64,000 bases of DNA from Amaranthus tricolor. Lineage: Eukaryota; Streptophyta; Magnoliopsida; Caryophyllales; Amaranthaceae. The notes beneath the pieces were generated by a model, which saw nothing but the letters and a program-made list of their open reading frames with translations, ran no database searches and had not been told where the DNA came from. Positions 22,274 to 53,060 of this stretch are shown piece after piece (position 1 is the first letter of the stretch; every line of letters begins with the position of its first letter). The stretch lies in assembly GCF_026212465.1 (NCBI RefSeq), contig NC_080058.1:13806265-13870264 (forward strand), written 5' to 3'. The position numbers and the translations under genes were made by a program.

Positions 22274-24467
22274 CTAAAAAAAGTCGCGGAAGTTGTCGTG
22301 AGGGTCCTGATGTTACTGACGTAGCGCCTCACGGTATTAGGACTTTTTTCACAGGCATTTTTATGTGAACTTTTAACTTGAAAAAAATCTTTTTATTTTG
22401 GTAATTCATGTTTTCATGAACTTATATTTAAATTAAAGCTTATTATAGGTTTTTTAGAGCCTAATACATTTTGAAAAAAAAGATAATTATGGGTCATATG
22501 TTGGAATAACCCATATAATGGTTGTTACTCCATGATTTTAATTCACAAGTCAGTGTTTTTCGTTTCCGTAAGTTCAAAATTTGTTACAAAGCGGTCTTTG
22601 TGTAACGTAAAGGTCTCATTTTTATTCTCTTATTACTGAAAGTACTGTGACAACTCATTGACCTTACTGCTGTTTAGGACACATGGATCGGGATGTAAAC
22701 CACCTATTGGTTGTTGGCTGATGCAAATTGATGGTTTTTGACCTCAGATTTTGGTATTGAATGAAGCATGTGCTCAGAGACTAGAAGAAAGGTAGCAGGA
22801 AGATGGCATAGTATTCAGAGGAGGGTGTTGGACTAATGTCAGTGTTGGATACTAATTAGCAGAAATTTAGAAGTGAGGTAGGGAAGATTTTGTCATATAT
22901 TGGATAGAGGGGTGTATCTTGGTATTATAATTTGAGTTAGTTAGAAAGTATTTTCTAAAAGAGGATAAATTCAGAGAGGGAAAAACGTTTTTAAATAGGA
23001 AAGGGGGAAAATGAGGAAAGCATCAAATATTTTTATACAGATAAAGTGAGTCTACTCATTCCTTGGAGGGTAACAAGCTTCTCGAATGCTTGCAATATCT
23101 TTACGTTTTCGATCTACTTTTGTAATCTTTAATTTACAGTACAGTATTACAATATCCATTTACATTTTCATCTTTATCCAGGTCACACATTTTACTTAAT
23201 AGCTACATTTCTGTATTTGACATATTGCTGACTGTCATGGCTTACTAGCCTTTTACTGATTTATAGAGGAGGGTTTTCTAGTTGATCTTCCTCTAGGTCT
23301 TTAGAGGAAATTGGAAATTGAATTAAACCTGAATAATAGACATTTATTTCTCTCTTTGGGTTCTTTCTGCAGGTCTAACAATACAATAGATTCTTTTTCA
23401 TGCTTCAATTGGCCCCCTTTACCTTTGTAAAATGCTGCAGAAACTGCTTATTATGTTTGTATAGTAAACTTTCTGAATATTTGTCTTCATTCAATGCAGT
23501 TTCTATTTTTCGACGATGAAAGACAGGAGTTGGTTCCGATAGTCGACATCGATGTAGCTGTATAATGAAGCATTTTTATTAATTGCTGTCATGCTTTGTG
23601 AAGCTGAAGCACCTTTGCTGGCACGTATTAGTCTTGGTTTTTTGGTAATAAACTATGCTCGTATAGGTTTCTTGATGTTGTTAATAGACCGTAGTTACAC
23701 TGGGAATATACTTTTATTTTCAATGTAAATTTCTGTGAAATGCATATCATTCTCTAATGAGCTGAACGTTGCTATGATGTAAATCGTCGAATACAAGTCA
23801 TCTCTGATCATGGCTTTCTGCACTTTAAAATACGTTTCTTATACTCATTCTAATCAAGTATTCCCTCGTACACTTGGTGATTCTTTTTCACTGCATTAGC
23901 TTGCATTGTTATGGGTGGGTATGTAGCAGCAGGAGCAGGAAGTCTAGTTGGTAGTGTTGGTTAGGGAGTGCTAAAGTGGTTATGGGAACTTACTTATTCT
24001 CCAACTAAAGAGTTATTTAAACTTATATCTTATAGCTTGTTATTACATATATAAACTTTTCTTGCTTAGTATCCATTTTCACTTTTCTTGCCTGCGCTTG
24101 CCCAAAACAAGCAATCCATAGAGTTGTTGGGTGAAGCAAGGAAAGATAATGCTTTTTAGGATTATCTTATCAGGTTTGACAAAGAGCTCTTCATGTAATG
24201 GTTAGCATGCTATTTTTCACCTTTAGGAACGGTTTAGACGAATTCGTGGCTGAAAGTAGAGTGCTAAAGTTAAGCAACCTCCAAACCTTCTTAAAAGATA
24301 TTAAGGCGGTTTGAGAATACGTTGAGTTCTACGTTGATGTGGAGGACTTCAAAGGCATTTTTGGGGGCAATGAAAGACCAGAATGAAAAGCCATATAGAA
24401 AGTTAAAATAAACATAATCAGGAGGGGAAAGAATCCTAAAAGGACAGGGCATAGATGTTCTTAGCTC
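22274..24467. other. Intergenic DNA with LTR-like and exon-like traces
   Basis: The stretch at 22740-23180 (GGTAGGGAAGATTTTG, AGAGAGGGAAAAACG, then T-rich TTACAATATCCATTTACATT) has the texture of a copia-type solo LTR, but no second copy or termini were identified. At 23500-23565 a short open frame after a good acceptor is described as a finding. Nothing else is recognised. Confidence 0.35.
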
Positions 24468-24476
24468 TTGAATGAG

Positions 24477-24660
24477 AAAATTTGAAAAAAATAAGATCAT
24501 TTAACAACTTATTTCTCAAAATAAGCTTCGTGAAAACTTTATTCCCAAAATAAGCGTTCGTACATCCAAACCTAGGATCGGTGTAAAATCGTTGTTACTA
24601 ACAGCGAAAAAAAAAAATTAGAAAAGCCTTAAGTCGCTGTTACTAACAGCGACTTAAGAA
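24477..24660 (+). repeat. MULE left terminal inverted repeat
   Basis: About 185 bp, matching the inverted right end with few differences. The inner part contains palindromes built on CGCTGTTAGTAACAGCG and its variants. A further copy follows at about 24670-24695. Confidence 0.9.
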
Positions 24661-25252
24661 GTCTCTTTAAGTCGCTATTAGTAACAGCGACTTAATGCTT
24701 ATATTTTTTTCCAGTTTCCTTCTTCCTCATTTCAGTTCACGCCTTTTGTTTTCCTTTTGCGACACTTACGAGATCTCCCTTTTCTTTCCACCATTAAAAT
24801 CAACTTTAATCCTTTAACTAAACTCATCAAATTCCAAGTTTGTACAACTAATTAGTTCTGTCATCTTCCTACATTGACCTAAGGTACTATTTTTTATGTT
24901 TTTTTTTTCATTTTCGAAAAATTAGGGTTTACTAACTTTTAATCAACTTTCACATTAATGTAGGTTCATAAACTTGCAATTTACTAATTCTTGTTGATCT
25001 ACAGTTTATTGAGTTACGTTTTTATTATAATTTTTTTTATTTGTTGTTGATTTTAAAATGTATGTCATGTATAGTGGTCATTTACACTTAAACTCTATGA
25101 ATATGTCCAATGTAGTTGTTATTTACCTTGATCTTCATAATGAGGTTGTTTGTTCGTGAATTTGTTGTTGAATTTAAAATGTATGTCATCTATAGTGGTC
25201 ACATATTTATGAACCTGATGTTGATGTTGATTTTGTATGTATTGTTGTAGAA

Positions 25253-27085
25253 ATGGATTCATTTCGTGTAACTGTTATATGCTTTTGCAATAGTTCAATT
25301 CAATCAAGTAGTAAAAATGTTAAGTATGTTGGGGGAAGACGTAAACTGTTTGCATGCAACTCATACATGGATTTGAATGAACTTAAACATTTTATATGCT
25401 CTAAGATTGGCATTGACACTACAAGAAGTACTGTTAATTTAAGTTTTAAGTACAATATGAGTGAAGATTTGTTAGCTTTTCCGGTTGAGGATGAGGAGGC
25501 TATAGATGCAATGTGGGAGTATTCAAAGTCTACCCCTACTCCTTCTTTAGAGTTATATATAGAAGAGGTACCCCTAGGGAATGAAGATATCAATGCTGTG
25601 GAAACAAATGCATTCCCGAATATAACTTCTTCTGCTCCTTCTCATATGCCCTTCCATGCCCAAGAAACCCAAAACCCCTTTATGCCATCTTCTTCTTATC
25701 CTTCTAATGAACCCAATCAACTTCAATTTCAAGTCACAAATGATGATACTTTTAACTTAGAAGATACAAATGAGCCGTGGGGTGATGTTAATAGTGAGAA
25801 TAATGAATTCGTAAAAGCTCCTTCTGAGGACGATGTGGGTGTTGACGAGGAGGCTCTAGCTAATGACATGAGCTTAGGCAACATTCCAACAATCATTGCT
25901 CCTACACCTTATTCACTGGTTCCCCCTCTAGATGAACACGTTGAGGACAACTCTTAGAGATCTTGGGATTGTGACACAACCTACACCGATGAAGGAGAGT
26001 TTCAAAAGGGTATGATGTTTGATAACAAGGATGCCTTGTTGGACGCTGTTAGATTGTATCATATTCGTAGGAACGTTGAGTACCGAACTGAGACTTCAAA
26101 TCAAACCGTGTTCACCTTGAAGTGTAAGAGAGGGTGTGCTTGGAGGCTTAGGGCTAGGAAGAGCTTCTACTCACCATCATGGGAGATTGTTACATATAAA
26201 GGAAAGCATGGGGGTTGTGTATTAAGTACTGAAAATGTGTCAGCTGGACACATTCATTTGACATCTTCCGTGATTAACAATCTTATTAGAAATTGTGTTG
26301 CTCAAGACCCATCAATAAAGGTCTCTGTCGTGCGTCAAATGGTGAAAGACCAATTTGGTGTCGAAGTGACCTATAAGCGGGCATGGTGTGCTATACAGCA
26401 AGCCCTTCTCTCCATCTATGGTACATGAGAAGATTCTTATCCTCTTCTTCCACGCTTCTTGAAGGCATTGCAAGTTTCTAACCCCGGGACTGTAGTTGAG
26501 TGGTTCTTTAAGGAAGATAATGATGTTGGTGTGTACGTCCGTTCTAGTATTAGAACTTTCCAAAGTGTGTTCTGGGCTTTCCAACCTAGTATTGAGGGAT
26601 TCAAGTATTGCAAACCCCTTATTGCCATTGATGGAACACATTTGTATGGTAAGTATCGCCATACGTTGTTGACTGCGATTGCCCAAGATGGGAGCAGGGG
26701 TTAATTGGGGGAAATAAGTACACTTCACACGCCACTAGAATTATCACCCGTAACACTGAGAAGGCAAACTACCATGAGATTGTCGCATTTGACTACAGAC
26801 AAGACCTTTTTCAAGTTAAGACTGGACGTGGTAATAGAGGATCCGCCAAGGGTGGTAAAATACAAAGTGTGGATATGAGAGAGATGAAATGCACTTGTAA
26901 CAATCCCTCCATATATCATTTACCTTGTTCTCATGTTCTTTCTGTATGTATTAAAAGACATTTATCGTATGAGCGTTTTGTGGACTCCTGCTACACGACC
27001 CAGAGCTATGTCAACACATTTGAATCCATATTCTTGCCGTTGATTGATAAGATGTGGACTCGAAAGTTGGCAAGACAAAGTCTAT
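25253..27085 (+). pseudogene. MuDR-type MULE transposase, disrupted
   Basis: Transposase of the mudrA family, which would bind the TIRs and catalyse cut-and-paste transposition. The frame opens at 25253 (MDSFRVTVICF). It has an N-terminal MuDR/PB1-like part, an acidic linker, then a Mutator DNA-binding domain at about 26012-26425 (DNKDALLDAVRLYHI, LKCKRGCAWRLRARK). The first catalytic Asp lies in IDGTHLYGKY at about 26630. The frame is broken by TAG at 25955 and by TGA at 26426, where Trp is usual. After AQDGSRG (about 26703) the remaining catalytic region is missing and the frame shifts. The C-terminal SWIM zinc finger (CTC...LPCSH) is kept at 26890-26934. It then runs directly into the plant mobile domain. 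Confidence 0.85.
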
Positions 27086-28634
27086 AGATTATTAGGAGTC
27101 CGACCTCCCGCAGAGGTAGCCAAAGAGAGTAGCCTGCGCGTAACATGGCTTGCGCAAAACTTCTCGCACCTCCCTGAAGGTGATGATGAGGCCACCATTG
27201 AGAGATACGCTAAGGCGTATCTCTTATATCTGATTGGTGCTGTCTTGTTCTCCGACAAGACTGGCACCCGGGTACAACTATTGTACTTGACGTTGCTCGA
27301 TGTGCCATGGGAGATCATCTCCGGGTACAGCTGGGGTTCCGCAACCCTAGCGTATCTGTACAGGAGACTTTGTGAAGCTTCACGGAAGAACGTGAAGGAG
27401 ATTGCTGGGCCCTTGATTATTCTGTAGGTAATACTAACTTTACATGTTACCGCTTTGTTTCTTTTATTAAATGTTTTTGTGTTTCTTTTACTTACTTATA
27501 ATTGTAATTCATAGCTTTGGGCGTGGGAGCACATTCTCATTAGTCAACCGATGAGAAGTGTGGGACGTGGTGCATTTGCGCCACCATTTCTTCCACCCCC
27601 ACTTGTGCCGTATGGATCGCGGTGGTCCTTTGATAGACGAACAAGGACCCACACAGGATCAGGCGTGGGGTTCTACCGCGATCAACTCGATCTACTACGA
27701 GCTGACCAGGTAATAACTTCACTACTACTTGTCTTGTAACTATCACATTGCGTAATTTATTAATCGAATTTTCACGTTTAGTTTCGCTGGGACCTTTACC
27801 CCGCTGAGGCATACGCTGTATTGCCTCAACACTCAGGCATATTGTCAGGGGTGTGGAGAGAATCTGCACCTCTGATCTGCTTCGACATAGTTGAAGTGCA
27901 TCTCCCTGAGCGCGTACTGCGCCAATTTGGGATGGTACAGAGCATCCCGCCGCCATGTGACACAGAGGTGGAGTTCCATCACTCTCGCAAGGGTCGGGAG
28001 CCCAAGAACTGGCTCGAGATCAACATGTGCCATGTCGCTCGTTGGGAGCACAGGCTAGAGCTGCTGGCCCAAGGTGCGCCGATCGAGGCTGTAGGCGCAC
28101 CTACTTTGGCGGATTACATGCTATGGTTCCTCTCCATCACTCGTCGATGGATGACACCACGAGGTATTATCGCGGCAGCCCAGTACGCTCCCGCAGCACC
28201 GACGATGACGCACTTTGTAAGTATTCTTCAACGTTGATTATTATCTATAGCACTTACACGTTATACATTTCATTAATACTTAAGTCTTAATGCAGGCACA
28301 GGGCATTGCATCTGTCATCAGCTCCACCAAAGAGGAGCTTGTACGGGAGATTGCCCAAGGCATACTCCTAGGGACGCAGTTTTAGCACTTCATTCCGGAA
28401 GTGACTGTGCCCGACACCACTATGTACCAGTACGGGTCATCTCCTCATCATGCTGACGTTCATCTTGAGGAGGTTGACTTAACGTGCCCCGACTACGGTG
28501 CCGGGTCCTCACAGGGTGCCACATCATCACAGTATCAATCACCTCCCTTACCCGAGTGTCATGCGACGACCTCTTACTATTGTAGGAGGCGTCGTAAACT
28601 GTTAAAGTTAGACAGGGTACAGGAGGAGGATTAA
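27044..28634 (+). pseudogene. Plant mobile domain (PMD/MAIN-like) gene carried by the MULE
   Basis: Resembles the aminotransferase-like plant mobile domain of MAIN, MAIL1 and 'serine/threonine phosphatase 7 long form' proteins, nuclear proteins linked to silencing and genome stability. Four exons are inferred: about 27044-27427, 27515-27709, 27782-28216 and 28296-28634, all GT-AG and in phase. Recognisable blocks are LLGVRPP, RYAKAYLLYLIGAVLF, GYSWGSATLAYLYRRLCEA, LWAWEH, and WLEINMCHVARWEHRLELL followed by DYMLWFLSITRRW. A TAG at 27425 lies exactly at the exon 1 border, where Gln is usual. A second TAG at 28383 precedes a further in-frame C-terminal tail that ends at TAA 28632. No separate start is evident. 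The gene overlaps the end of the transposase in another frame, as if fused to it. It is more GC-rich than its surroundings. Confidence 0.8.
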
Positions 28635-28994
28635 CATTAGTATACTATTTGTATATATTATACATTAGTGACATTTTATATATATTGAACATTTGTACAT
28701 ATTCAGTATTTGTAACATTTGGACTTTTGTGTATAATTTGTAATATCTATGTAGATGTATATATTTTTATCGTATTATCACATGTTTATTATGAATGAAA
28801 TGATGTTAGGTACTCAGAGTTTTCGGCGATGAATCATTCCGCCAAGAATGCAGTATGAATTTAATTAAAAAAAAACAGATAATCATATTCAAATAGGGAA
28901 AATGCTCTCGAAAATTCTACACAATTTCATTCATGTTCAACGAATACATATCAAATTACATAGTTCATTCGTTAAATTAAACCACCGACGCTAA

Positions 28995-29312
28995 CTAAGA
29001 TTGCTTCTTAAACTTTCTCATAATCCTTTCAGTCTCTTCTTTCCTATGTGTCATATCATCTATTTGTCTCTTAAGATTAAAATCCTCATCTTTAAGCTCT
29101 TGTTTTTCTGTTTCAAGCCGTATTATTAGGTGTCTCTGCCATTTGGTACCCTTCGGATCAATCCATTTAAAGTATGTGCATCCTAATCCTTCAACCAAGT
29201 AGAAAGGACAAGCAACAAAATCACGCCCAGGATCGAAGTCGCTCCAATCTGTATTAATCTCAACTTCATAACCACAATCACAAAGCTCTTCAATACAATG
29301 CTCCTTTGACAT
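28995..29312 (-). CDS. GRF-type zinc finger plus coiled-coil protein, 105 residues
   Basis: Uninterrupted minus-strand frame from ATG at 29312 to a stop at 28995. Residues 11-55 fit the GRF zinc finger: a Cys pair region CDCGYE, then DPGRDFVACPFY and GLGCTYFKWIDPKG, with the conserved GR, Cys, Cys and F-x-W positions. Residues 60-103 are charged and heptad-like (LIIRLETEKQELKDEDFNL), a probable coiled coil. GRF fingers bind single-stranded nucleic acid in some animal proteins; in plants short GRF-coiled-coil proteins are common in repeats and their role is unknown. It is convergent with the PMD gene and lies just inside the right TIR. It is the only intact frame in the element. Confidence 0.75.
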   Translation of the reverse strand: MSKEHCIEELCDCGYEVEINTDWSDFDPGRDFVACPFYLVEGLGCTYFKWIDPKGTKWQRHLIIRLETEKQELKDEDFNLKRQIDDMTHRKEETERIMRKFKKQS

Positions 29313-29477
29313 CTATAGAACACATATAATATAGTAACGTAAGTAAACATTCAAAAATAATATTAACATTTATAAATTGAGAGTAAGACTAACATAATAC
29401 CTTATGTTACCTTTAAAAATTGATTCAATAGAACAAGAATGATGTAGATTGGATATATGAAGTAGGGAAATAATGGA

Positions 29478-29491
29478 GTTATTTATAGAAC
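29478..29491 (-). promoter_or_regulatory. Candidate TATA box for the GRF gene
   Basis: On the minus strand TTCTATAAATAACTCC lies about 170 bp upstream of the GRF start codon and just inside the right TIR. Position and sequence fit a plant core promoter. No other support. Confidence 0.45.
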
Positions 29492-29589
29492 ATCATTACA
29501 ACGGCTATTTTCAAGTTCGTAATGACTATTTTTCTAATTAACAACGGCTAGTTTAATTTGTAAAAAAAAAAAAAAGAAAATTAGAAAAG

Positions 29590-29773
29590 CCTTAAGTCGC
29601 TGTTAGTAACAACGACTTAAGGCTTTTCTAATTTTTTTTTTTCGCTGTTAGTAACAGCGATTTTACATCGATCCTAGGTTTGGATGTACGGACGCTTATT
29701 TGGGGAATAAAGTTTTCACGAAGCTTATTTTGGAAAATAAGTTGTTAAATGATCTTATTTTTTTCAAATTTTC
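29590..29773 (-). repeat. MULE right terminal inverted repeat
   Basis: Inverted copy of the left TIR. At its inner edge (about 29580-29632) TTAGAAAAGCCTTAAGTCG and its near-perfect inverse flank TGTTAGTAACAA, making a 50-bp hairpin. Confidence 0.9.
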
Positions 29774-29884
29774 CTTGATTGAAACCAAAGCGAATGTTTA
29801 TGCCATGCATAAAGAGATGGAGTAATGGCAGCGGCCAGCTCCTAGGAAATCTACTGGTAAGAACTAACATGCCTGCTAGCTCTT

Positions 29885-30145
29885 ATACTAAAAATTTCTA
29901 AATAAGCTTTGGGAAAACTTTATTTCCAAAATAAAGGTTTGTTGCTCCAAATTTAGGTAAGGAGCGTGTTTGCTATTACTAACAGCAAATAAAGCAGCAG
30001 ATCAATAAAAGTCAAAAAGTCAACATGTTTGTTCGCTGCTATTACTAACATACTGACTTTTATTCACGTTTTCTATTTTTAAAGTAGCCGTTGTAACTTT
30101 TCAAACTAGCCGTTACTTTTGTTCGCTGTTAATAAGAGCGAACAA
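29885..30145. mobile_element. Truncated relative of the MULE terminus
   Basis: AATAAGCTTTGGGAAAACTT, then GTTGCTCCAAATTTAGG, TGCTATTACTAACAGCA and TAGCCGTTGTAAC follow the same order as the TIR and subterminal part of the adjacent MULE but are strongly diverged. Only one end is present. Confidence 0.6.
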
Positions 30146-30509
<364 letters not shown>

Positions 30510-30639
30510 TCCAAATGTTCAATATATACAAAAGTAGGTACAAATTAATTATATACAAAACTAATGCTCATCATTCTGTTCCACCTTAACAAATTGTGAA
30601 GCTCTATTGCACTTCATACAATCGGGGAGGGTAGGTGAT

Positions 30640-31259
30640 TGATAATGTGATGGTCTAACACCCTGTGACGTGTGAACAAAAAATTTAATCCGCGTGGTTT
30701 TTTTCATATATTACGATGATTTTGGCAACGACAAACTTGTGTTTTGTGAGTATGAAAGCATGTGACAGAGTATTGGGTCGCCCTAGCCGTATCTCAATTC
30801 AAATTCATATTTGTAATGTCGTCGCAGGTCCGTCACTAGTTACAAACTTTAGACAGCAATGGATTGGTTCGTCGCTTTTCCGTCGCTGTGTTGTTAATGG
30901 TCATTTTGAACGTGGGTAGTCACTTGCAATAATTGTTTAAAAAAACTAAGTAGATTAAGTTCTTTAAATCACAAATACGAAAAGTTTACAAAAAATCTTT
31001 GACTGTGGTTACATTTTGGATAAACAACAGGTTAGTCCTTTGTTTTTTTCAGTTTATTATATGTTATATAACTGTTGTTAGTTTGCTATTTTTATGTATA
31101 TATATTATGTTTATAATTGTTGATAGTATAATTGCATGTGTAATTTATGTTTATATATTAGTGCACTTTAATGTTTGGTTTTTTTTTATTTAACTGCTTA
31201 TTTTATTATAATAATATATGTTAAAATTGATTCACGTAATGATCTAAAATAGATGTATA
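30640..31259. other. Presumed 5' end region of CACTA copy A
   Basis: GTCGTCGCAGGTCCGTCAC and TCGTCGCTTTTCCGTCGCTG near 30818-30885 give CGTCGC phrases. Opposite-orientation GCGACGAA-type phrases occur near 32810-32970, beyond the decayed transposase. They could be subterminal repeats of that element. No termini were fixed. Confidence 0.35.
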
Positions 31260-33990: not shown

Positions 33991-35003
33991 TGGCGCCTTG
34001 CATTTGCTCTAACGTTTATATTTTCATAATATAACCCTTAAGCTTCTGTTTCATTCTTCAAAACAAACGCTCAAAACAAACGCACACACAGCAGTTCTTC
34101 AAACATACGCACAGCAGTTCTTCTGTTTCATTCATAAACTATAATTCTTCAAACTTCATCTTCTTCAAACATCATCGAACATTATCAAACTTTCCAGAAT
34201 TCTTCAAACCCTTAATCTTCTTCAAACATCGAACATCATCATCTTCTTCAAACAGCCGTTCCATTCCAGAATTTTCTCAAACTTCTCTTGTTCATTATCA
34301 AACTTCAAACATCGAACATTCTTCAAACTTCAAACTTCATTATCGAACATTCTTATATTGTTCTTCAAGGTATTATTTTTTCAAGCTTAATTTAAATTCT
34401 TCAACTTCATTATGTTTTAGGGATTTAGTTTTTTTATACTAATTTTTTTTCATTGTATAGGTTATACTAACCCACCAAAACCCACGAAATTCAAGGTATC
34501 ATTTTCATTTTGATTTTGTAAGTTAGGTTTAAATTTGTCATACTTTATGAATGTATATGTTGTTGTTGTTTTTAAGTTTTAAATTTATCATATATATCAT
34601 GGTTTGTTATATTTTTAAGTAGTTTCTTCATTTTATTTATCAATGTGTGTGTTTTTTATGTTTTAAATTTATCATAATTTATTTCTAGTTTGTAAATTAG
34701 GTTTAATTAGCGTTGTTTATGGTTAAATGAATGAATGAGTTGTTGATATGAATGTTAATTAGTTGTCCAAGTTTATGAATGTGATTTTATTTTTATTTTT
34801 TTTATCTGAATATTATTAATTATAGTTACTATAATAAACATCATTTGGATAGTGTTAAATGAACATTGTGTTATTATTTGGATTAATTAGTGTTAAATGA
34901 ATGATTATTACTTAATTTTGTGGTTATTTAGAGTTCGTTAAGTATATATGTTTAAAAGTTGTGTATTAATTTTGTTTTGAATCAATTAATCACACTAATT
35001 AGG

Positions 35004-38000
35004 ATGACAAACGATTGTTCTTGGATGTATGGAAGCATTGAATCGTCGGAATTTATTGATGGCGTATTAGAATTTTGTAGTATTGCGGTTGAACATCAAG
35101 TTAGGACGGGGGGAGTTGGTTTTTATTGCCCATGTGTCAGTTGTGGCAATGTATCAAAGGTAGATAGTGTTGATATCCTTAGGGAGCACATACTTCGACG
35201 TGAGTTTAGGCCTCAATATCATGTTTGGGTTTGGCATGGTGAGGAGGGAGTTTACAAAGAGAAAAGTGTTGTTGAGGACGTCAATAATGTGGCCGATGTC
35301 AATGAGGATGTAGTAGATCATGTTGATGGGTATGAGACAGATGAAGAGAATGTCGATAAGGATGTGGATCGTGTTGATGAGATGATGGAGGGAGTCGAGG
35401 ATGAGTTAGGAAAACGTCCTCGTGTTTTTGACTTGTTGACAGAGGCTTCTCAAAAGCCTTTGTACCCTGGATGTACAAAGTTCACCAAACTAACAGCAGT
35501 GTTGACAATTTTCAACATTAAGTCAAAGTTCAATTGGAGTGACGCTAGTTTCACAATGTTATTAGAAGCGTTAGGTGAGTTGCTTCCTGTGGGAAATGAA
35601 CTTCCAAAGTCGACATATTATGCCAAAAAGCTCATGTGTCCTTTCGGCTTAGAGTACCAGAAGATTCATGCGTGTCCGAATGATTGTGTGTTGTATCGGA
35701 ATGAAAACGAGAACTTAGAAGAGTTTCCTAGGTGTGGGTTATCAATCTATAAGCGTAAAGGGGCTCGGGATGCTAAAGGGCCCCCGACTAAGGTATTGTG
35801 GTATCTTCCAATAATACCTAGATTCAAGCGCTTGTTTTCTATAAAGAAAGATGCGTTAAATTTGAGGTGGCATGCAGATAGGGTGAAGAAAGGTCACTTG
35901 CTCACACATCCATCTGATTCTCCAGAGTGGAAGAGTATTGATAGGTTGCATAAGACTTTTGGGGATGAGGTTCGTAATTTAAGGCTCGGACTGTGTACGG
36001 ATGGAATGAACCCATTCGGCAATCTTAGTTCTTAACATAGTACTTGGCCGGTACTTTTAGTGATCTATAATTTGCCACCTTGGTTGTGTATGAAGCGTAA
36101 GTACATAATGCTTTTGCTTCTTATCTCGGGTCCTAAACAACCTGGCAATGACATAGATGCGTATCTTGCACCTCTCGTTGAGGATTTGAGAAAGATGTGG
36201 GATGAAGGCGTTTCAGTGTTTGATGCATATGCTAATGAGGAGTTCACCTTGCGTGCAATGCTTTTATGCACCGTTAATGATTTTCCGGCATATGGCAACT
36301 TATCGGGGTATAAGAACAAAGGGAAGAAAGCATGCCCGATATGTATCGATGACATGGAATCCACGTGGATTCCTAAGTGCAAACACGTATTCATGCACCA
36401 TCGAAAGTTCCTCCCACGAGACCACCAATATCGTAAGAAGAAGAAGTTGTTCAATGGGGAGGTTGAGGACCGTGTAGCTCGTCGACCGTTGACCGGTTAT
36501 GAGGTTTATGAACAGGTTAAGGGAGTTGAGACTGTATTTGGTAAAACGGGGCAAGTGCAAGGAGGTGAAGGCCGATTATGGAAAAAAGAATCAATCTTTT
36601 GGAAGCTTCCATATTGGAGAGATCTACAGGTTAGGCATTGTCTTGACGTTATGCATATAGAGAAAAATGTATGCGATGCCATACTCGGGACTCTCATGAA
36701 CATTCCGGGTAAGACAAAAGATGTTAGGGCCGTGCGAGATTGGTTTGAATGTAAGGGTCTTCGTCCGGAGTTGTGGGCACATGTTAAGGTGAGTAAGAAA
36801 AGAAATAGAGCTGATGATGAAGTTGGTGGCAGTAAGAAGAAGATGCTTAATGACAAAGTTTATTTTCCTCTAGCTTGCTACACATTGTCTAAAGCAGAGA
36901 AGCGGACATTTTGTGAGTGTTTGTATGGCATTAAGGTTCCGTCTGGGTACTCATCCAACATGAAGAGATTTGTTAGCCTAAATGGTGAGCTGAAGTTGGG
37001 AAGCATGAAATCTCACGATTGCCATGTAATGATGCAAGTGTTCTTACCAATTGCAATCCGTGGAATACTGCCAAAACATGTGAGATATGCTATTACCGAG
37101 CTATGTTCGTTCTTCAACACAATTTGTAGTAAAGTTCTTGATCCCTTTAAACTTGATGCACTTCAACTCGACGTGATTGTAACTTTATGCAAGTTTGAGA
37201 TGTATTTTCCACCTTCTTTCTTTGACATAATGGTTCATCTTATTGTCCATCTCGTTCGTGAGATCAAACTTTTGGGTCCAGTTTTTTTAAGGTGGTGTTA
37301 TCCTTTTGAAAGACACATGGGTGTTTTACAAAACAAGGTGAGGAATCCAGCACAACCCGAGGGGAGTATGATTCAAGGCACTGTGAGCGATGAGATTAGT
37401 AACTTTATAGCCGAGTATTTGGCCATGGCAAAGACTATTGGACTTCCCACCTCTAAACATGAAGGAAGGCTTGAGGGAAAAGGAACAATTGGCTCCAAAT
37501 CGGTCACACCTCCTCGAGAAAGCCTTCTACAAGCACACTTGTATGTGTTGCATCATATTCCGGAAGTTCATCCTTTTTTAAGTGAGCATTTTGATATATT
37601 GCGCGCAAAACATCCTTCTAAAGGGGATAGGGCATTGATGCAGTTGCATAACAAGACGTTTATTAATTGGTTTCATAATCGAGTAATATGCGAAGAACTC
37701 AAGGGTGTATCCAAAATTGTTAAGTGGTTAGCTTTTGGTCCTCGTGATGATGTCAACAAATATGAGGGTTACGATGTCAATGGCTTCACATTTTGGACTG
37801 AGGGTCAAGACAAGAAGTCATCGTATCTATAGAATAGTGGGGTTTCTATTTTGGCGTCATCTACATTTTACGCGAGTGCGAAGGATCAAGCGCCGGTTGA
37901 TGCTAAATTGGTATACTACGGGCGGGTACATGAAATATGGGAGCTTGACTACTCTACTTTCAATATTGGTCTTTTCAAATGTAAGTGGGTAGATAATAAT

Positions 38001-38030
38001 CGACGATGCATAAAAAATGACGACCCTTGA
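35004..38030 (+). pseudogene. CACTA transposase (TNP2/Transposase_21 family) with two in-frame stops
   Basis: One continuous frame of 1008 codons starts at ATG 35004, which follows an acceptor-like TAATTAG. Domains: transposase-associated N-terminus at residues 5-90 (SWMYGS, CPCVSCGN, YHVWVWHGE), an acidic linker at residues 95-145, and TNP2 core at about 287-560 (RWHADRV, FPAYGNLSGYK, KACPICIDD, CLDVMHIEKNV). A DUF4218 part follows at about 700-800 (SFFNTICSKVL, RWCYPFERHMG), then the first part of DUF4216 at about 915-1005 (EGYDVNGFTFW, GRVHEIWELDY). Stops are TAA at 36033 and TAG at 37830, the latter where Gln is usual before NSGV. DUF4216 is cut short where the 169-bp array begins. Absent the stops it would be near full length, so decay is recent. 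Confidence 0.88.
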
Positions 38031-39665
38031 TTATAATAGTCAGGTATATGAAATTAGAAGTTAAGTTGCGATTTTATGGGTTTTTAAGCGTTTTTGTCAA
38101 TTTCGCGCGTAAAGTAGGTCAAACATGGTTTGTTTTGCACGAAACTTGGCACACAACACTATTTGGAATATATTATTGTGTTGAAATGGTTATACTTGAT
38201 AATAATAGTCATATGCTAGAAATTAGAAGTTAAGTTGCGATTTTATGGGTTTTTAAGCGTTTTTGTCAATTTCGCGCGTAAAGTAGGTCAAACATGGTCT
38301 GTTATGCACGAAACTTGGCACACAACACTATTTGGCATATATTATTGTTTTGAAATGGTTAGAATTGATAATAATAGTCAAATGCTAGAAATTAGAAGTT
38401 AAGTTGCGATTTTATGCGTTTTTAGGCGTTTTTGTCAATTTCGCGCGTAAAGTACTCAAACTTGGTTTGTTATGCACGAAACTTGGCACACAACACTATT
38501 TGGCATATATTATTGTGTTGAAATGGTTAGAATTGATAATAATAGTCATATGCTAGAAATTAGAAGTTAAGTTGCGATTTTATGCGTTTTTAAGCGTTTT
38601 TGTCAATTCCGCGCGTAAAGTACTTAAACTTGGTTTTGATGCGAAACCGGGGCTGATTAAGGCCTTGGTTATGCAAGGATTAATGTTGTGCGTAAGCTTT
38701 GATTAATGACACAGTCAAAAACTACAAATGATCATGAAAAGAACACAAAACAACCACAAACACTTAAACAAAATTCTGATCTAGCAAACTGTCGACCAGC
38801 CCTCCTTCGGCTCAGCTTCTAGGAGTCCACGGGGATTGTTAGAATGGTTTTAGGACCTTGATAGCTAGATCCAAGTACCAAGATTCCATTTCCACTTTAG
38901 CCTAGGTCCTGGATGCATAGGTTTGGTCTCCACGTGTCGTGCAAGGTGGTCTGGTCACTAGTTTGATGCTGTCAATTTCGCGTTTTTATTTGTCAATTTC
39001 GCGCGTAAAGTAGGTCAAACATGGTTTGTTATGCACGAAACTTGGCACACAACACTATTTGGCATATATTATTGTGTTGAAATGTTTATACTTGATAATA
39101 ATAGTCATATGCTAGAAATTAGAAGTTAAGTTGCGATTTTATGGGTTTTTAAGCGTTTTTGTCAATTTCGCGCGTAAAGTAGGTCAAACATGGTTTGTTA
39201 TGCACGAAACTTGGCACACAACACTATTTGGCATATATTATTGTGTTGAAATGGTTAGAATTGATAATAATAGTCATATGCTAGAAATTAGAAGTTAAGT
39301 TGCGATTTTATGCGTTTTTAAGCGGTTTTGTCAATTTCGCGCGTAAAGTACTCAAACTTGGTTTGTTATGCACGAAACTTGGCACACAACACTATTTGGC
39401 ATATATTATTGTGTTGAAATGGTTAGAATTGATAATAATAGTCATATGCTAGAAATTAGAAGTTAAGTTGCGATTTTATGCGTTTTTAAGCGTTTTTGTC
39501 AATTCCGCGCGTACAGTAGCTCAAACTTTGTTTGTTTTGCACGAAACTTGGCACACAACACTATTTGGTATATATTATTGTGTAGAAGTTAATTGAAAAT
39601 CATAGTCATATTCTAGAAGTTATGTGTTAAGTTGCGATTTTATGCGTTTTTAACCGTTTTTGACA
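38030..39665. repeat. 169-bp tandem array inside the CACTA element
   Basis: The landmark TTAAGTTGCG starts at 38061, 38230, 38399, 38567, 39126, 39295, 39463 and 39627. The steps are 169, 169, 168, then a gap, then 169, 168 and 164 bp. Units share TTTCGCGCGTAAAGTA, GCACGAAACTTGGCACACAA and TATATTATTGTGTTGAAATG. Units are very alike, the last is the most diverged. One unit is broken by an unrelated 0.33-kb insert. Confidence 0.93.
38643..38961. other. Unrelated insert within the 169-bp array
   Basis: About 320 bp with no similarity to the array unit, richer in GC than its surroundings. TTTGATGC occurs at both edges (38635-38642 and 38962-38969), which could be an 8-bp target duplication or chance similarity to the unit. 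No inverted termini and no ORF are evident. Confidence 0.55.
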
Positions 39666-40859: not shown

Positions 40860-41938
40860 CCGTAAGCACAAATGGTGTACGATGCAGCCACGAGTAATTT
40901 TCCTGATACACATCATCATTTTCTACCTCATTGTGATGCTGTTGTCGCTAATGTACCACACTCGCCCTTACATATTGAAGAAGATCTGAATCCTTAATCA
41001 AGACAGTTCTTTGAAATGTTAAAAGCCGCCAACTTACCTCTGTACCCTGGTTGTGAAAATCTTACTCAGATGACGATAATAGGAAGGATAGCGAGTCTGA
41101 AGAAGGACTTTCGTATTCCTGAGATACTTTATGATGAAATCTGTCAATTGATTATGAAGAGTTGCCAAAAGATAATCGGATGACATCTAGTTTATATGAT
41201 ACAAAGAAACAAATTTCGGCTTTGGATTGCCGATGAAGAAGATTGACTGTTAATTAATGGATGTATGATTTATTAGGGCCCCACAGCGAGTATGACACAA
41301 TAAGATGATTGTGAGGTTTCTAGATGGATAACAAATAAGACCCCTAGAAAGCGGTTTCACTACTTTCCTCTCGGTCCTAGGCTATAACGGTTGTATGCTT
41401 CTGTGACTACTACCAGTCACATGAGGTGGCATGCGGAGCACCATTCAGATGATGGAGAGTTGTGTTACCCCTCAGACAGTGAAGCCTGGTTGACATTCAA
41501 CACGACCCATACGGATTTTTCTAGGGAGACAAGAAATGTGAGAGTAGGGTTGTGTAAAGATGGTTTCAATCCATTTGGGAACTTGGGACAACAATATTGT
41601 CTTGTATATGTTCGTGAAGAAACAATATATGTTCTTAATAGTGATCGTCCCGAGTCCCAGCAATCCAAAACATAAGATTGTCTTGTATCTACAGCCATTG
41701 ATACACGAGTTGCAGCTGTTGTGGGAAGATAGGATCCAAACATTTGACGTATCTAAGAGAGAGAACTTTTAGCTTCGTGCGACTTTAATGTGGATAATCA
41801 ATGACTTTCCAGCTTATTCGATGATGTCGGGGTGGAGTATTTCTGGCGTGCACGCTTGTCCGTACTGTATGGATGATTCCAAAGCCGTCTATCTAAGACA
41901 CAGCAGAAAAGTGAGTTGGTTTGACTCATATAGGAGAT
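40860..41938 (+). pseudogene. CACTA copy B TNP2-type transposase, 5' half
   Basis: Family blocks appear in order with several stops and frame changes: LYPGCENLTQM with IIGRIASLKKDFRIPE (about 41040), SHMRWHAEHH (about 41415), VRVGLCKDGFNPFGNLG (about 41540), LQPLIHELQLLWEDRIQTFD (about 41690), and INDFPAYSMMSGWSISGVHACPYCMDD at about 41795-41875. It breaks off at SWFDSYRR, where an Athila retrotransposon inserted after the target GAGAT (41934-41938). It belongs to a TNP2 lineage different from that of the CACTA at 33677-40479. Confidence 0.82.
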
Positions 41939-43495
41939 TGATAGCAAGATTTTCACAGTCGTCTATGCTAAACCTTGAACCAAATAATACTTATAACAAC
42001 CTACGCACTACACAAGTATAGTGGGGTAGGGGATAGAACCATGAGGACAAGGTTAACAATAAACTCTGCGTCGCAACATAACTAGTTTTTGTAGGGTGGA
42101 GAGCATCTAAAACTAATGACGGAAATAACAAGCGATTAACAATATAAATCAAAGGGGAGAAAAAGGGGTTGAGATTAGATTCACCCTAGGAAGGCGATCT
42201 TAAAAGAGCATATATTGGGTAAGAGGAAATCAAACAATAACTAGTCTAGATACCCAAGAGTACAAGAGGAAGTTGGTGATTCCAGAAATCACAACGAACG
42301 ACCTATAATCGCCCTATGTCTCTGGAGGAGTTGCAGGACAAGATTCGCATTGGGTTTCAAGAACTAATCATTATCATCTTTTCCCTAATCCTAAACAATA
42401 AAGAGCATAAACATTCCTAGGGTTTCACTAGTCAATCCCCAAGGAGAACTACTCACACATGATTGAAATATAGGAAACAATGATAATCAATAGAACAAAA
42501 ACCATAGATAATAGTGATCAAAAGAAACCAACAATAGTAAAAGTAATGTAGAAACTATTTTAGATGAGCAATAAATATAAGGCAAGACAATAAATGCAAT
42601 AAATGAACTCAAAGTAAATGCATTAAATGAACTCGAAGCAATGAGGAGATTGATACTTACAACCAAATGTTGATGCTACAATTAGGAGGTGCCAAAGATT
42701 TAATAATCAAGATTGAAATCCAAACTAGAAAGTAAAGACTTGAAATAAAAGATTGAGATGATAAAACTATGATAAACTAGGGTTTTTACTTAAAAATCTA
42801 AGTAATAAAGCTATATTAGAGAATGTATTAGGGCTTGCTCCCCTTGTTTCTACATAAAGTGGGGTATTTATACCCTCTAAGTAAAGGAAATTCAAATGCC
42901 CAAAAATGCCCTTGAGTTTGGCTTGAGAAGAAATATGGTTCCCGCAGAAAATAGGTCAATTCGCCCGATCTAGATGTTTGAATAATTTGAGGAACTTTCT
43001 CTGTGGTTGGTTCGCCAGAATGAAAGGTCCATTCGGTCGAATGGGACCATTCGCCCGAACGGTGTGTCATTCGCCTATTCCAGCAGCTTTGGTGAATCTT
43101 TTTTGAGAAAACAGGGGCTATTCGACCGAATGTCTTATCCATTTGGCCGAATGGAGCTTGAATAGACAATTTCAGCTTCTTTTTTCTCTTAACTTGAGCA
43201 AGATCCACACCAATTTTTTGAATGGTGTCTTGGTTAACCTAAATGGAGTAACAACTAGTGATTAGAGGCTTCCAAGCTCGGTGTGTTCTCCGGGGAAGTC
43301 TTCGATATGCGTGCCAACGTCTCACAATGTATTGATGTTGACCTTGTTGTCTTCGAATCTCCTGAAATAACCACAAAAGAACCCCAAAGACAAGAACAAG
43401 GTAAAATTCGTGCGTAATGTGCATAATAACGATTGAAAAGCATAAAACTTGGCACAATAAAGCGGTAGTAAACGTGTTCGTAAATGAGCACATCA
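41939..43495 (-). repeat. Athila 3' LTR
   Basis: 1557 bp, TG...CA. It matches 60146-61733 throughout with scattered substitutions and two length differences near 42955 and 43030, both in the ATTCG palindrome zone. The purine-rich TTGGGAGAAG just outside it on the minus strand is the likely polypurine tract. Confidence 0.9.
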
Positions 43496-45227
43496 ACTTC
43501 TCCCAAGCTAGACCGTTGCTAGTCCCTAGCAAACCAACCATCATGACAACGAGAGAACTCAAGGCAAAAAAAATTTGAAGCAAAAAGAAACAAGGTGAGC
43601 AGAAACTAAACACTACAAGCTGTGTGTGTGCAAACTCTTTCTTAGCCATAGGTGTGCAAGTACAATGGGTTCAGGAGAGCATAATACCAAGAAGAACAAC
43701 GCTTTCCACAGACTTGAGATCATAAGGTAAGCTACAATACAGGCTATGCCACCCACTACCTAGAGAGGTCACAACTCTACGCTTCTGGGGTCATTTCTCA
43801 AAAGATGTGAGAAATATGCAACGACGCTCATGTGTTTGATTATGGTTCGTGTTTCGCTCATAATCATCCAACTAAAGATGAGTCGGGAAGCAAACAAACA
43901 CCATATGTGTAAGTCGCTCATGACAAACCAATAAACACCATATCCAACAACTATTTTTACCCAAAAATCTCATGTAAGCACAATGATCTCCATCATCAAA
44001 CACCATCAAAAAAAAAATTTAAATTTCATCACATGTGTTCCCAAAGCTCATCTCCCAAATGAAATAATAACCTCCTCACTCAAATGAATACATATGTGTA
44101 AGTCTCGATGAAGAATAAGAGGAAGGTCTCCTCACTCACAGAACATGTATGAATAATCTCTACAATAAGCACGAGAAGATGAAGGGGGAAACAACATGAG
44201 CTGGATAAAAAATGAATAGAGTCATACGAAACCAACAACCAATATCATAACCAAAAGCCCACAAATCACTGTGGCACACAACGACCCCACCATAACTAAG
44301 CTATCCTTTGGGTAAAAAGAGGGAACATTTGGCTCATGTGGAGGTTAACTAATGTGGCTACAAAAGAAAAGGAAAAGGCAAAAACTTGGCTTAACCTAAA
44401 GTCAAATTACGTTAAAGGTAGGCTATTTGGCTATGTAGCTTAATTCTAGCGAACGTGTTATCATCTTTGGTCTTAGGAAAAGTCGACTATGCTGGAGAAG
44501 AACCGACACAATACTTAGATCTCCTAAATAGCACTCAAAATTAATGGAACTCGCAAGGAGTCCAAAGAGGCTCAATCCTCACAGGCTAGTCGAAATGTGC
44601 CTCTAAAGGTAGTCATCCAAACCACCAAGCAAGCAAACAAAGATCCCCCAAGTTAAGTGGAAAGCAGTCAATCAACTCAATTCCAAAACAGGCAATGGCT
44701 AGGAAAACACGAGTTTGCATATAACCGTTATATAGTACACAACAGAAGCTTGCTTGTTTGTTTCAGAAGCATATATAAGAAAAAGAAAAGCAAACAAAAA
44801 CAAAAATATATACACTAAAAACTAACAACTTTGGATTTTCAAGCAGGAGCAACAGGTCGTATCGAAAAGTAGGTGAAACAAGTACTCACCTCGATGATTA
44901 TGCAGAAACAACAGCTGGAACTCGTCTCAAGGATGAGAGTGGAAGAACCTGAAAACAACACCAAAAAGCAGAACTAACCAAAAAAGCAACGCAAAACCAC
45001 ACAACAACAATACCAGCAGCCATACAGGGCAAAAGACCGAAAGCCAAACAACAAAATGATGAGTAGAGGACAAAGGATATCTCATAATAGTTGTCATGTC
45101 GGGGGTACCAAGAGGGGGTGGCCATGCTTTCGCCGACCATGTGGGAGCGGTAAGCGAAGTCATACCACGGGTAACCAGCCCGCTCAAAGTTTTGCTCTAG
45201 GTGATCGAGCCGGGCAGTGTGATGGGC
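43496..45227 (-). other. Athila 3' non-coding region
   Basis: Sequence between the env-like frame and the 3' LTR. It begins with CTTCTCCCAAGCTAGACC on the plus strand, a phrase common before Athila LTRs. Frames here on either strand show no domain. Confidence 0.6.
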
Positions 45228-46442
45228 CTAGGCGGTGAGGACTTGGTCAAGTCGGGACTCAATGCGACTTTGGGAGGACATAATCTCAGATTCATCCTCG
45301 GAATCCTCGTCATCCGGTACCGCTGAAGTAGAGGCCCGGGTGCTGCCGCTGAGGCGATCGCGCATAGCGAGGGTCTGAGGACGAGGAGGGGGGTCGACTG
45401 CGTACCTCAGCACATTGCCTTCTATGAGGTAGAAATTGGCAAATTGTAAGAGGGGAGGCAAGTGGTAAGAAGGGAGGGGAATGGTTCGGTCTTTGAGGTA
45501 CCGCCATCGTAGAGGGTCGGTATAGATTTGGTCAGCTCTCACGAGACACTGCTCGTGGAGGGTGGTTTGACTGCAAATCTATCACTAAATTCCACTAGAT
45601 TGATCACTTCTAAGAATTCAGCAATGCGATATACATGCCCTCCTACACATAACTCAGTTTTAACGTCCAGGATGGCTGTGGTGTTCAAAAATTTCCATAG
45701 GGGCATGGGAATGCTAATTGCCGAGTCGGCGTGTGGTGCAAGGTAGCGGTGCAATATGTGCACTTCTTGGTTTCGGACGAGGTGATGGCTAGGAGAAGGG
45801 AACAACGTCTCACGAGCAAATTTGAAAAACATTCGAAGGACGGGGTGGTGCATATCAGAAGCATAAATGTTTCTATTCGCATAAACAAGCCAGCCAACAA
45901 TCTTAGGCCACAACTCAGAAACACGTGCATTGTACGGTTGTTTATTCGGAATAGGTTCATGAGCAAAACCAAATACAGTAAAAAAGGTAGCATAATCAAG
46001 ATAGTAGGTTGTATTCCTTAGCCGGAAGGACAAATGCAGCCTATCCTCGCGTTGGCATCGGCTAAGAGAACTGAGAAACTCTTATGTTAAAAGCTTGTGA
46101 GTGGGGTGCCACATAGTTGCCCAGTTTTGAAGGCCACATGCCGTCAACAGCTCAACAAAATTATCATAAATACCCATACGATGTAAAATTGAAGATCTAA
46201 ATACTGGGTAAAATTGATTTTACGTACTTTAAGCGTTGAAAACGCTCAAACTGCTCCAAAGATGCAAAGACCACCGTTCTATACTCGTCGTCAAACCAAA
46301 GTTCTTGGCCTGGGAGACGTTGTGGATGTTCGGGTTGTGGTTGTGGTTGTGGTTGCTTATCCCTTGCAACCCCTGAGGAGGACCCTTCCCTTTGTGTTCT
46401 AGATCACTTGAATGGCAGTCTCAAGCTCCTACGGGGTCCCAT
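45228..46442 (-). pseudogene. Athila ORF3/env-like reading frame, degenerate
   Basis: Minus-strand frames in order start with MGPRRSLRLPF at 46442. An acidic and Gln/Pro-rich part with PQPQPQPEHPQ follows, then a conserved-looking block at 45539-46033 (TTYYLDYATFFTVFGF, WLVYANRNIY, HYLA-type region), then a Ser/Asp-rich end at 45228-45542. A TGA interrupts soon after the start, another break falls near 46200, and a frame change lies near 45545. The position, between pol and the 3' LTR, and the style fit the Athila ORF1/env-like family. I see no clear signal peptide or membrane segment, so an envelope role is not supported by this copy. Confidence 0.6.
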
Positions 46443-46589
46443 GGTGGTGTATGAGGTGGGTTGGAGGTGAGAGTGGTGAAGGAAGGTGGTGGAGTAGCGG
46501 AGTAAGTTGGGGGTTTGTGAAGGAGAGACTTGTAGTGAGAATGGGATTTTACATGGAGGAGTCGAGTGAAAACGGGGGTATATATAGAA

Positions 46590-46890
46590 CAGTAGCCGCA
46601 TTCACCCGAATGGACTTCTATTGCCTGAATGGGGTCCATTCGGTCGAATGGAAAGCCCTATTCGGTCGAATGGAAAGCCCTATTCGGTCGAATATCAAAT
46701 AAATTCCCATCAATCTTTGAAGCACATTCGCTTGAAATAAAGAACAATTCACCCGAATAGATGTTCATTTGCCCGAATGACACATTATTTGCCTTTTGCA
46801 GAAGATTTTCTGAACTTGATAAAAAAAAATTTCATTACATCATCCATTCGCCCGAGTGGAATAGCCATTCGCCCCAATGATTTTTCATTC
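46590..46890. repeat. Cluster of ATTCG-CGAAT palindromes upstream of the env-like frame
   Basis: CCATTCGGTCGAATGG, ATTCACCCGAATGG and ATTCGCCCGAGTGG-type palindromes occur at least eight times. The same palindromes form clusters inside both Athila LTRs (42950-43160 and 61140-61400). Confidence 0.85.
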
Positions 46891-47216
46891 GGTATTATCA
46901 GGCTTTCTCCCTCGTCTCGAACCTTTTGCCTTTCACTCCATGCCTTCATTTTTCTACTTCGATCTAAAGGATACTTCCACTCCCAAACCAAGCATGTTTG
47001 ACAATTTGTATTGAGTAAGAAAATCCAAAGGAAAACCGAGTTACCTCCCGTAAGTGCTTTGTTTAACGTCGTTTAGCTCGACTTAGTTGGGGCCATCAAT
47101 CAAAAATCAACACAAAACAAAACCCAAAACGAAGCTAGATGCTTCAAACTCAACAGAACTCAATAGAATGATGCCTTAAAGATCAGATATGCTTTTTAAA
47201 CCAAGGAATACACCCT

Positions 47217-48117
47217 TCATTCGACGTCAACATCAACTAACTTGATTTGCTCGACCATGTTGACCTCGTGAAGTCTGCTTTCATGGAAGAATTTTATCCG
47301 TTGCCCATTCACAATGAAACTACCCCCATGATGATCTTTCAGCTCCACTGTTCCATAAGGAAATACTTGTAGGATCTCGAACGGCCCAGACCACCTCGAT
47401 TTCAGCTTCCCGGGAATAAATTTGCTCTTGAATTGAAAAGTAGTACTTTGTCTCCTACATGGAACTCTTGCTTAAGGATCCGTTGGTCATGCCAACGCTT
47501 AGTGCGTTCCTTGTAGACGTGCATGTTGTGGAACACATCTAGCTTCAATTCTTCCAATTCACTTAATTGCTCAACTCGCTTCTCATAGGATAAGGCAGGG
47601 TCCAAATTGAGGGTTTGGATTGCCCACCAAGATCTACACTCTAGTTCCACTGGCAAATGGCAAGACTTCCCGTACAACAGCCGGAACGGGGTGGTTCCAA
47701 TTGGGGTTTTGTAGCATGTACGGGGTGCCCAAAGAGCATCATCTAACTTGAGAGACCAATCATTCCTGCTCGGGTTAACCACCATCTCTAGGATCTTCTT
47801 AATCTCCCTGTTGGCGATCTCTACCTGCCCTTGAGTTTGGGGATGGTAGGGCGCACCAACCTTGTGTACGACTCCGTACTTCTTCAAAAACTTTTTTAGC
47901 TCGTTCTTCGCGAAGTGGGAACCCCCCATCACTTATGACTATCTTGGGAACAAAAACTCTAGGGAAAATTATGCTTTTAAAAAGTTTCATAACTACCTTG
48001 TGATCATTTGTAGGCGAGGTAGTGCCCTCCACCCACTTAGATATATAATCTATCCCTACAAAAAGGTACCGGTTCCCATAAGACGATGTAAAGGGGCCCA
48101 TGAAGTCAATATCCCTA
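47217..48117 (-). pseudogene. Athila pol, integrase C-terminal part
   Basis: Begins abruptly at DIDFMGPFTSSYGNRYLFVG, with SKWVEGTTSPTND and VVISDGG-type blocks (here KIVISDGG) holding catalytic Asp residues. It continues through [19 protein letters not shown] and [14 protein letters not shown] to the C-terminal part ending near 47217. At least two frame changes occur (about 47925 and 47412). The sequence 5' of DIDFMGPF, that is all of protease, RT, RNase H and the integrase zinc finger, is missing and replaced by chromovirus sequence. Confidence 0.82.
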
Positions 48118-52106: not shown

Positions 52107-52151
52107 CTTCTGCAAGCGAAACAAAAGGTACTAAGAAGAGAAGTAAAACAT

Positions 52152-52874: not shown

Positions 52875-53045
52875 AGGTGTTTTTCCCTATTCGTATTTCC
52901 AAATTCTACACGAAAGAACAAAAATAAAACATTACTTATCACCTAACAATATACAACACAAACACATATAAAAAATTTACGCCCTAAGGACTACTTCCCA
53001 ACTCTCTACTAAGGTTGTTTATTCCTTTATCATCTGAGGAACGTT

Positions 53046-53058
53046 GACTCTGATACCA
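53046..53058 (-). other. Chromovirus primer-binding site (initiator tRNA-Met)
   Basis: TGGTATCAGAGTC on the minus strand, 2 bp after the LTR end. This is the standard iMet primer site of plant retrotransposons. Confidence 0.9.
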
Positions 53059-53060
53059 AT

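Follow-up and report, generated by a model that had tools for sequence, protein, structure and literature searches.

The plant mobile domain (PMD) is reported in most members of several groups of plant Mutator-like elements (MULEs), often in antisense orientation (PMC6446971), and the PMD-bearing groups given there are MUDR, MUDRAVI2, MDR, MULE-Monocots and MULE-Solanaceae_1 (Dupeyron 2019, PMC6446971). In grasses and Amborella, MULE-borne PMD-C has been described as fused to the transposase (Ikeda 2017, PMC5418596), and eudicots are described as containing mainly genic PMD-C (PMC7156037). The PMD proteins MAIN and MAIL1 act in the silencing of transposable elements, and MULE-borne PMD has been speculated to counter silencing (PMC5418596). 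A first-pass annotation of a stretch of Amaranthus tricolor DNA, which noted that PMD genes are known to associate with MULEs, is in line with published work (PMC6446971, PMC5418596). That stretch, the window of this study, is 64,000 nucleotides long and corresponds to C12:13806265-13870264 of the assembly, C12 being 26,347,435 bases in length. At 24476-29773 it holds a MULE with the remains of a MURA-type transposase, a broken PMD gene and, on the opposite strand, an open frame for a small protein with a GRF zinc finger and a coiled coil. We describe this element and the family to which it belongs, using for all genome-wide searches the 519.85-Mb assembly of A. tricolor (Amaranthaceae, Caryophyllales) from which the window itself was taken.

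In MuDR of maize, mudrA and mudrB have a convergent layout. The second open reading frame, mudrB, is apparently needed for integration; vanB is described as being of unknown function and vanC as anti-silencing (PMC6446971). VANDAL21/Hiun, with VANA, VANB and VANC, is a three-gene MULE whose accessory protein VANC acts against silencing and carries DUF1985 and DUF287 (PMC5735166).

Recurrence of the PMD-GRF arrangement

The arrangement of PMD and GRF recurs in the genome and is not a product of chance. When 10 kb was taken around each of the 20 best GRF copies besides that of the window, the tail of a PMD gene was found to face GRF on its 3′ side at all 20 loci. These loci are not a random draw, since the best-scoring GRF copies were chosen. 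A terminal inverted repeat (TIR) lies on the start side of GRF at 19 of them, the N-terminal piece of the transposase is present at 17, and other transposase pieces are present at 10, those of L021 coming from a second element. A pair of TIRs was found at 16 loci. With the ends allowed to shift by 2, target duplications flank seven of these pairs at 9/9 and three at 8/9, and six pairs have none; the ten pairs with duplications of 8-9/9 therefore represent copies that moved separately.

Matches to GRF and to the PMD exons were also collected over the assembly, and the best 150 of 1095 GRF candidates (each at E of 1e-55 or better) were set against the best 150 of 1903 PMD-exon candidates. Among these, 56 of the 150 PMD copies have a listed GRF that is convergent and downstream at 358–2132 bp. 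The spacing is 594–773 bp in 54 of the 56 pairs, 358 bp in one and 2132 bp in one, and not a single pair in any other arrangement was found among the 150 listed PMD by 150 listed GRF copies. At least 160 GRF copies were scored in the genome, and with ten further copies added, at least 60 of the 150 listed PMD copies are paired. Both matched parts are free of stops in 29 of the 56 pairs, a number that includes the window, whose PMD is broken elsewhere. About 40 of the 150 listed GRF copies, counted by eye, align only to residue 104, at 84–88% and with nearly equal scores, which suggests an amplified subfamily.

The outer 125 bp of the TIR gave 42 matches, the two of the window included, and 40 of them were placed. 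Thirteen of the 42 adjoin a listed GRF, and seven face a listed GRF across up to 9 kb, on its far side. Another 18 TIR-centred loci were taken as 2-kb stretches. GRF is present at L037, L038, L049 and L054 of these stretches and at L016; L044 and L053 are left ends, and L045 is a TIR alone. Taken together, 19 TIR ends on the GRF side have coding sequence, and 18 of them, that of the window included, contain GRF. PMD is visible at three of the five fetched GRF-side ends within the stretches read (L037, L038 and L049), and L054 is broken by nested TIRs.

The first-pass annotation had taken PMD and GRF for a defined accessory set and proposed that the host genome be searched with the TIR and with GRF, so that elements holding both genes between matching TIRs could be counted. 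The set is borne out at the 20 loci, in the 56 convergent pairs among the matches listed and at the 18 of 19 TIR ends, and the arrangement recurs genome-wide. Related MULEs had also been expected to carry GRF; some do not, and copies of this kind are in the minority among those read.

Of 41 database relatives of GRF, three run on into transposase sequence in antisense, each into a different stretch: P0011 into 25452-25210 (80%), P0068 into 26700-26596 (86%) and P0063, weakly, into 26247-26170 (54%). These three look like deletion derivatives that keep the same relative orientation. Some of the database matches to GRF are amaranth sequence, because the GRF of L021 and P0001 have identical sequences. 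A linkage drawn from the equal source lengths (1299 and 672) of two GRF and two PMD database matches was dropped, being within chance.

Gene order in fuller copies

Three fuller copies, which measure 6541 bp (L028), 6278 bp (L031) and 6268 bp (L020) from TIR to TIR, have, between the two TIRs, first a transposase with SWIM and CCHC, then a separate PMD gene and last a GRF gene of opposite direction. The transposase of L020 and of L028 closes with a CCHC-like knuckle and then a stop; the knuckle of L020 has Tyr at the place of His, and part of it is absent in L031. A PMD frame opens with MDP.A.GPLDPSVLTMQ about 130 nt after the end of the transposase and is split by an intron in all three copies. 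Because a stop, this interval of about 130 nt and a new start lie between the two frames, PMD is a separate gene with the same direction as the transposase, and a transposase-PMD fusion was rejected for L020, L028 and L031. The GRF gene is convergent with both. We name no intact element, since all three copies have frameshifts, stops or losses.

The window copy

The MULE of the window is a dead, internally deleted copy of this multi-copy Amaranthus family. Long TIRs and a target duplication identify it as a MULE, and its features are collected in Table 1. The first-pass annotation had delimited it by TIRs and a 9-bp duplication. The TIRs stand as described, at 183 nt and 96% complementarity; the duplication, however, is not perfect, because the flanking 9-mers CTTGAATGA and CTTGATTGA agree at 8/9, and the element starts at 24476 rather than at 24477.

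Transposase remains had been reported inside the element and are indeed there. DBD_Tnp_Mut (3.2e-9) and SWIM (2.6e-6) both exceed the Pfam cut-offs and mark a MURA-type transposase, which in this copy is broken by stops at 25955-25957 and 26426-26428. Most of the catalytic core is gone, because about 556 nt in L020, L022, L024 and L028, in which the catalytic region is judged present by its length, separates pieces that nearly abut at about 26700 in the window. No Pfam match to the DDE core (PF10551) was obtained in the window copy, where it is deleted. At about 27058 a further deletion has taken away the C-terminus of the transposase and the N-terminus of PMD, both of which are kept in homologues.

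As for the spliced PMD gene of the first-pass annotation, Pfam PMD (PF10536) matches three of its exon pieces (6e-17, 0.0029 and 2.8e-16), and the profile check that had been proposed gives 62.3 and 60.1 bits for exon pieces against a cut-off of 34.9. The gene is nevertheless not a working one, having lost its N-terminus and acquired two in-frame stops. Its homologues run about 100 residues further at the N-terminus, and database relatives that span the stop site at 27425-27427 read through there. Names such as MAIN-LIKE 2-like are annotation only and give no placement in a clade. With stops in both transposase and PMD, the GRF-coiled-coil frame at 28995-29312 of the minus strand is, as had been claimed, the sole intact one. 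Since only this frame is open, the window copy is not autonomous and yields no full PMD.

Table 1. Features of the MULE in the window (positions of the window).
Feature	Position	Strand	Basis or remark
Target-site duplication, left, CTTGAATGA	24467..24475		8/9 match to right copy
Left TIR, starts GAAAATTTGAAAAAA	24476..24658	+	183 nt, 96% complementary to right arm
Subterminal inverted/direct repeats based on TCGCTGTTA-TAACAGCGA	24607..24710		found inside right end too
Transposase N-terminal piece, weakly PB1-like, TAG at end	25253..25957	+	Pfam PB1 E=0.09, below cut-off
Transposase DNA-binding piece (DBD_Tnp_Mut), TGA at end	25958..26428	+	Pfam E=3.2e-9
Transposase catalytic region, start; remainder deleted at about 26700	26429..26704	+	comparison with L020, L022, L024, L028
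Transposase SWIM piece, C-terminus cut by internal deletion	26713..27058	+	SWIM E=2.6e-6; relatives have longer C-terminus and stop
PMD exon piece, N-terminal part absent, TAG 27425-27427	27059..27427	+	frame list, Pfam, homologue alignment
PMD exon piece	27515..27709	+	Pfam; intron borders by eye
PMD exon piece, without in-frame stop	27782..28216	+	Pfam E=2.8e-16
Last PMD exon, in-frame TAG 28383-28385	28296..28634	+	sequence and frame list
105-codon GRF zinc-finger and coiled-coil frame, open, convergent with transposase and PMD	28995..29312	-	frame list, Pfam
TATAAATA, TATA-like, 175 nt before GRF ATG	29480..29487	-	like motif in 17/21 copies
Right TIR	29591..29773	-	183 nt, 96% complementary to left arm
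Target-site duplication, right, CTTGATTGA	29774..29782		8/9 match to left copy

Other elements are present downstream in the window. A CACTA-type transposase (Transposase_21, DUF4218, Transpos_assoc) lies at 34956-37832, its frame split by one stop. At 38026-39665 lie tandem-like direct repeats, up to several hundred bases long and 78–98% identical. The stretches 41938-43495 and 60145-61733 are 89% identical and flank gag and pol frames of gypsy/Athila type, which are on the minus strand, and 41938-61733 looks like an LTR retrotransposon region (LTR, long terminal repeat).

The GRF gene and its product

GRF zinc-finger proteins include APE2, NEIL3 and TOP3, and in repair proteins the GRF domain binds single-stranded DNA. 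The GRF assignment of the window frame, for which a search with PF06839 had been advised, finds a match at E=1.4e-5, but the score of 25.5 bits falls just under the gathering cut-off of 25.9. Pfam DUF730 is matched by 10 of 12 members of the GRF family at E≤0.1, with 4.4e-5 as the best; DUF730 was not found in the literature searched. The residues C11, C13, C35, C45 and W50 are invariant in all 19 selected full-length members, down to 49% identity, and R30 is altered in P0004, P0009 and P0061. Structure models give the frame a long C-terminal helix. A profile search of the PDB with GRF returned no significant GRF match (NEIL3 at E=0.089), and no relatives were found in the viral contigs or the prokaryote genome contigs searched. 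By analogy, the finger and the coiled coil suggest a dimeric nucleic-acid binder.

The TATA-like sequence that had been noticed for the GRF gene, TATAAATA 175 bases before the ATG, is shared: TATAAA(T/A)A occurs at -200 to -120 in 17 of 21 GRF copies compared. An amaranth transcriptome of 2011 (PMC3146458) mentions a "GRF zinc finger containing protein" induced by stress, which cannot be tied to the GRF of the element.

Selection was estimated as dN/dS by the method of Nei and Gojobori. In a first set, chosen by protein similarity, the ratio is 0.36 for GRF (bootstrap 0.23–0.62, n=21), 0.26 for the DNA-binding piece (n=7), 0.20 for the start of the catalytic region (n=8), 0.77 for the N-terminal transposase piece (n=4) and 0.28–0.97 for the PMD pieces (n=8–15). 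In a set of 18 GRF copies chosen via TIR DNA, it is 0.48 (0.30–0.94) for GRF and 1.16 and 1.12 in the other frames. Private changes in GRF look neutral, and shared ones are richer in synonymous changes (Fisher p=0.01 with 18 copies, 0.08 with 35 copies). These figures fit, as modest evidence, a GRF gene that would be constrained while elements are active and would decay after insertion.

Discussion

Our analysis indicates, with high confidence, an Amaranthus MULE family of three genes, in which a MURA-type transposase, a PMD gene of the same direction and an opposed GRF gene lie between long TIRs. A number of observations weigh against this reading. Of the 150 listed PMD copies, 90 have no partner among the listed GRF copies. 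The locus L043 has transposase and a scrap of PMD and no GRF, a second copy within L031 (8835-9999) has a TIR and PMD without GRF, and in a divergent MULE at L021:4538-9774 a PMD is present and GRF was not found where expected; the last adjoins a family copy and is 51–72% identical to the family in its PMD pieces and 43–78% in its transposase pieces. Adjoining the window element, 29894-30671 is the remnant of a related inverted MULE, in which TIR-like sequence (73.5% over 102 bp) and a minus-strand PMD tail (37.5% over 40 aa; in DNA, 82% over 51 bp) are separated by a gap with a (TA)n array, and no GRF was found between the two. L016 has GRF without PMD, joined to the N-terminal piece of the transposase. 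None of 33 copies of a divergent GRF lineage, headed by the best matches to P0010, pairs with any of the 150 listed PMD copies. Ten of the 18 TIR-centred loci are short TIR pairs without genes, some of them nested, that resemble miniature inverted-repeat transposable elements (L039, L040, L041, L042, L046, L047, L048, L050, L051 and L052), and these ten apparently derive from the same MULE family; L012 is a short gene-less TIR pair as well.

Further points of the same bearing concern the GRF protein and the estimates of selection. Eleven of 12 family members match PF06839 at E≤0.1 and none of the 12 reaches the Pfam cut-off. Twenty-three of 42 sequences were incomplete and did not enter the alignment; no fewer than six of them (P0063, P0071, P0073, P0076, P0077 and P0079), as judged by eye, have lost a finger cysteine. 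The finger is poorly modelled, at a pLDDT of about 50. In the protein-chosen set the frame controls for GRF stand at 0.70 and 1.34, and a wrong frame yields smaller values than the proper one for PMDc (0.55 against 0.71) and PMDe (0.69 against 0.97). A stop is present in nine of the 18 TIR-chosen GRF copies, and the evidence for selection on GRF is modest.

In the three-gene reading, GRF could be a helper of the element, with a position like that of mudrB in MuDR. Its product would dimerise through the coiled coil, the finger would bind nucleic acid, be it the element ends, single strands or transcripts, and the protein would assist transposition or expression of the element, with PMD acting on host silencing or expression. 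We put this mechanism forward tentatively, as the likeliest of those considered and at somewhat less than even chances. A GRF gene or fragment might alternatively have been captured once by the MULE, in the manner of a Pack-MULE, and copied passively without any role. MULEs often pick up extra reading frames and pieces of host genes (PMC6446971), and a passive copy would agree with the stops in half of the TIR-chosen copies, with private changes that look neutral and with the frame control of 0.70. Such a history is unlikely all the same, as 105 of the 150 listed GRF copies are stop-free (these being the best-scoring and hence a biased sample), the dN/dS of GRF is below 1 in both sets, and the finger cysteines are unchanged in every full-length member aligned. 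Retention of the TATA-like motif in most of the copies compared also speaks against a mere passenger, and shared ancestry alone could explain it.

About as improbable as passive copying is an anti-silencing module comparable with VANC, in which PMD would poison or mimic the MAIN/MAIL pathway and GRF would target the DNA or transcripts of the element. PMD and GRF do occur together in this family, host MAIN and MAIL1 silence transposable elements and an anti-silencing role of MULE-borne PMD has been speculated (PMC5418596), and a protein encoded by a MULE is able to demethylate the copies of that family (PMC5735166); yet none of the nine window frames scanned matched the VANC domains DUF1985 or DUF287. 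The first-pass annotation had suggested that a transposon-borne PMD and GRF pair could counter or exploit host silencing, a role already put forward for MULEs with PMD (PMC5418596). Slightly less credible still is a two-protein PMD-GRF module fixed in the MULE lineage, whose GRF would recognise the element's own single-stranded or nascent nucleic acid and whose PMD would interfere with MAIN/MAIL silencing. If true, VANC would be joined by a second and independent form of anti-silencing encoded by transposons. That GRF is a host gene in or beside which MULEs inserted, a thought prompted by their tendency to insert in or near genes (PMC6446971), has practically no likelihood, given that GRF lies inside the TIR pair and the target duplications and keeps a nearly fixed spacing from PMD in copies on many contigs; it is refuted by the matches listed, in which all 56 pairs share one arrangement.

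What is new is that, in a MULE family of a eudicot, GRF recurs as a convergent gene alongside a PMD gene that is itself separate. The main text of PMC6446971 does not mention GRF, and a link between GRF and MULEs was not found in the literature searched, supplements and subscription journals being outside the search. GRF offers a concrete partner for PMD in MULEs, and the deletion derivatives form a natural series. Where annotations of amaranth genomes show small GRF genes, these may belong to transposons.

Compared with the known systems, the family shares long TIRs, a 9-bp duplication, a transposase with SWIM (or CCHC) and the PMD itself with the PMD-bearing plant MULEs as these are described (PMC6446971). 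The PMD of those is often antisense, whereas here PMD is a same-sense separate gene and GRF is the antisense one. With the PMD-C captures (PMC5418596) it has in common that PMD is carried by a MULE. The captures described there are fusions; the PMD of this eudicot family is a gene apart from the transposase, having a start and introns of its own, and is accompanied by GRF. GRF zinc-finger and DUF730 proteins have the same CxC...C...C finger with a GR-F motif, and the protein here differs from them in being a stand-alone one of 105 aa, with a C-terminal coiled coil and borne by a transposon. VANDAL21/Hiun is likewise a three-gene MULE with accessory genes, from which the present family departs in that neither of the two VANC domains was matched in the frames scanned. 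MuDR of maize resembles it in having a transposase and a second gene, to which GRF corresponds by position; here a third gene, PMD, is added, and the convergent gene encodes a GRF protein, a possible eudicot counterpart of mudrB/vanB.

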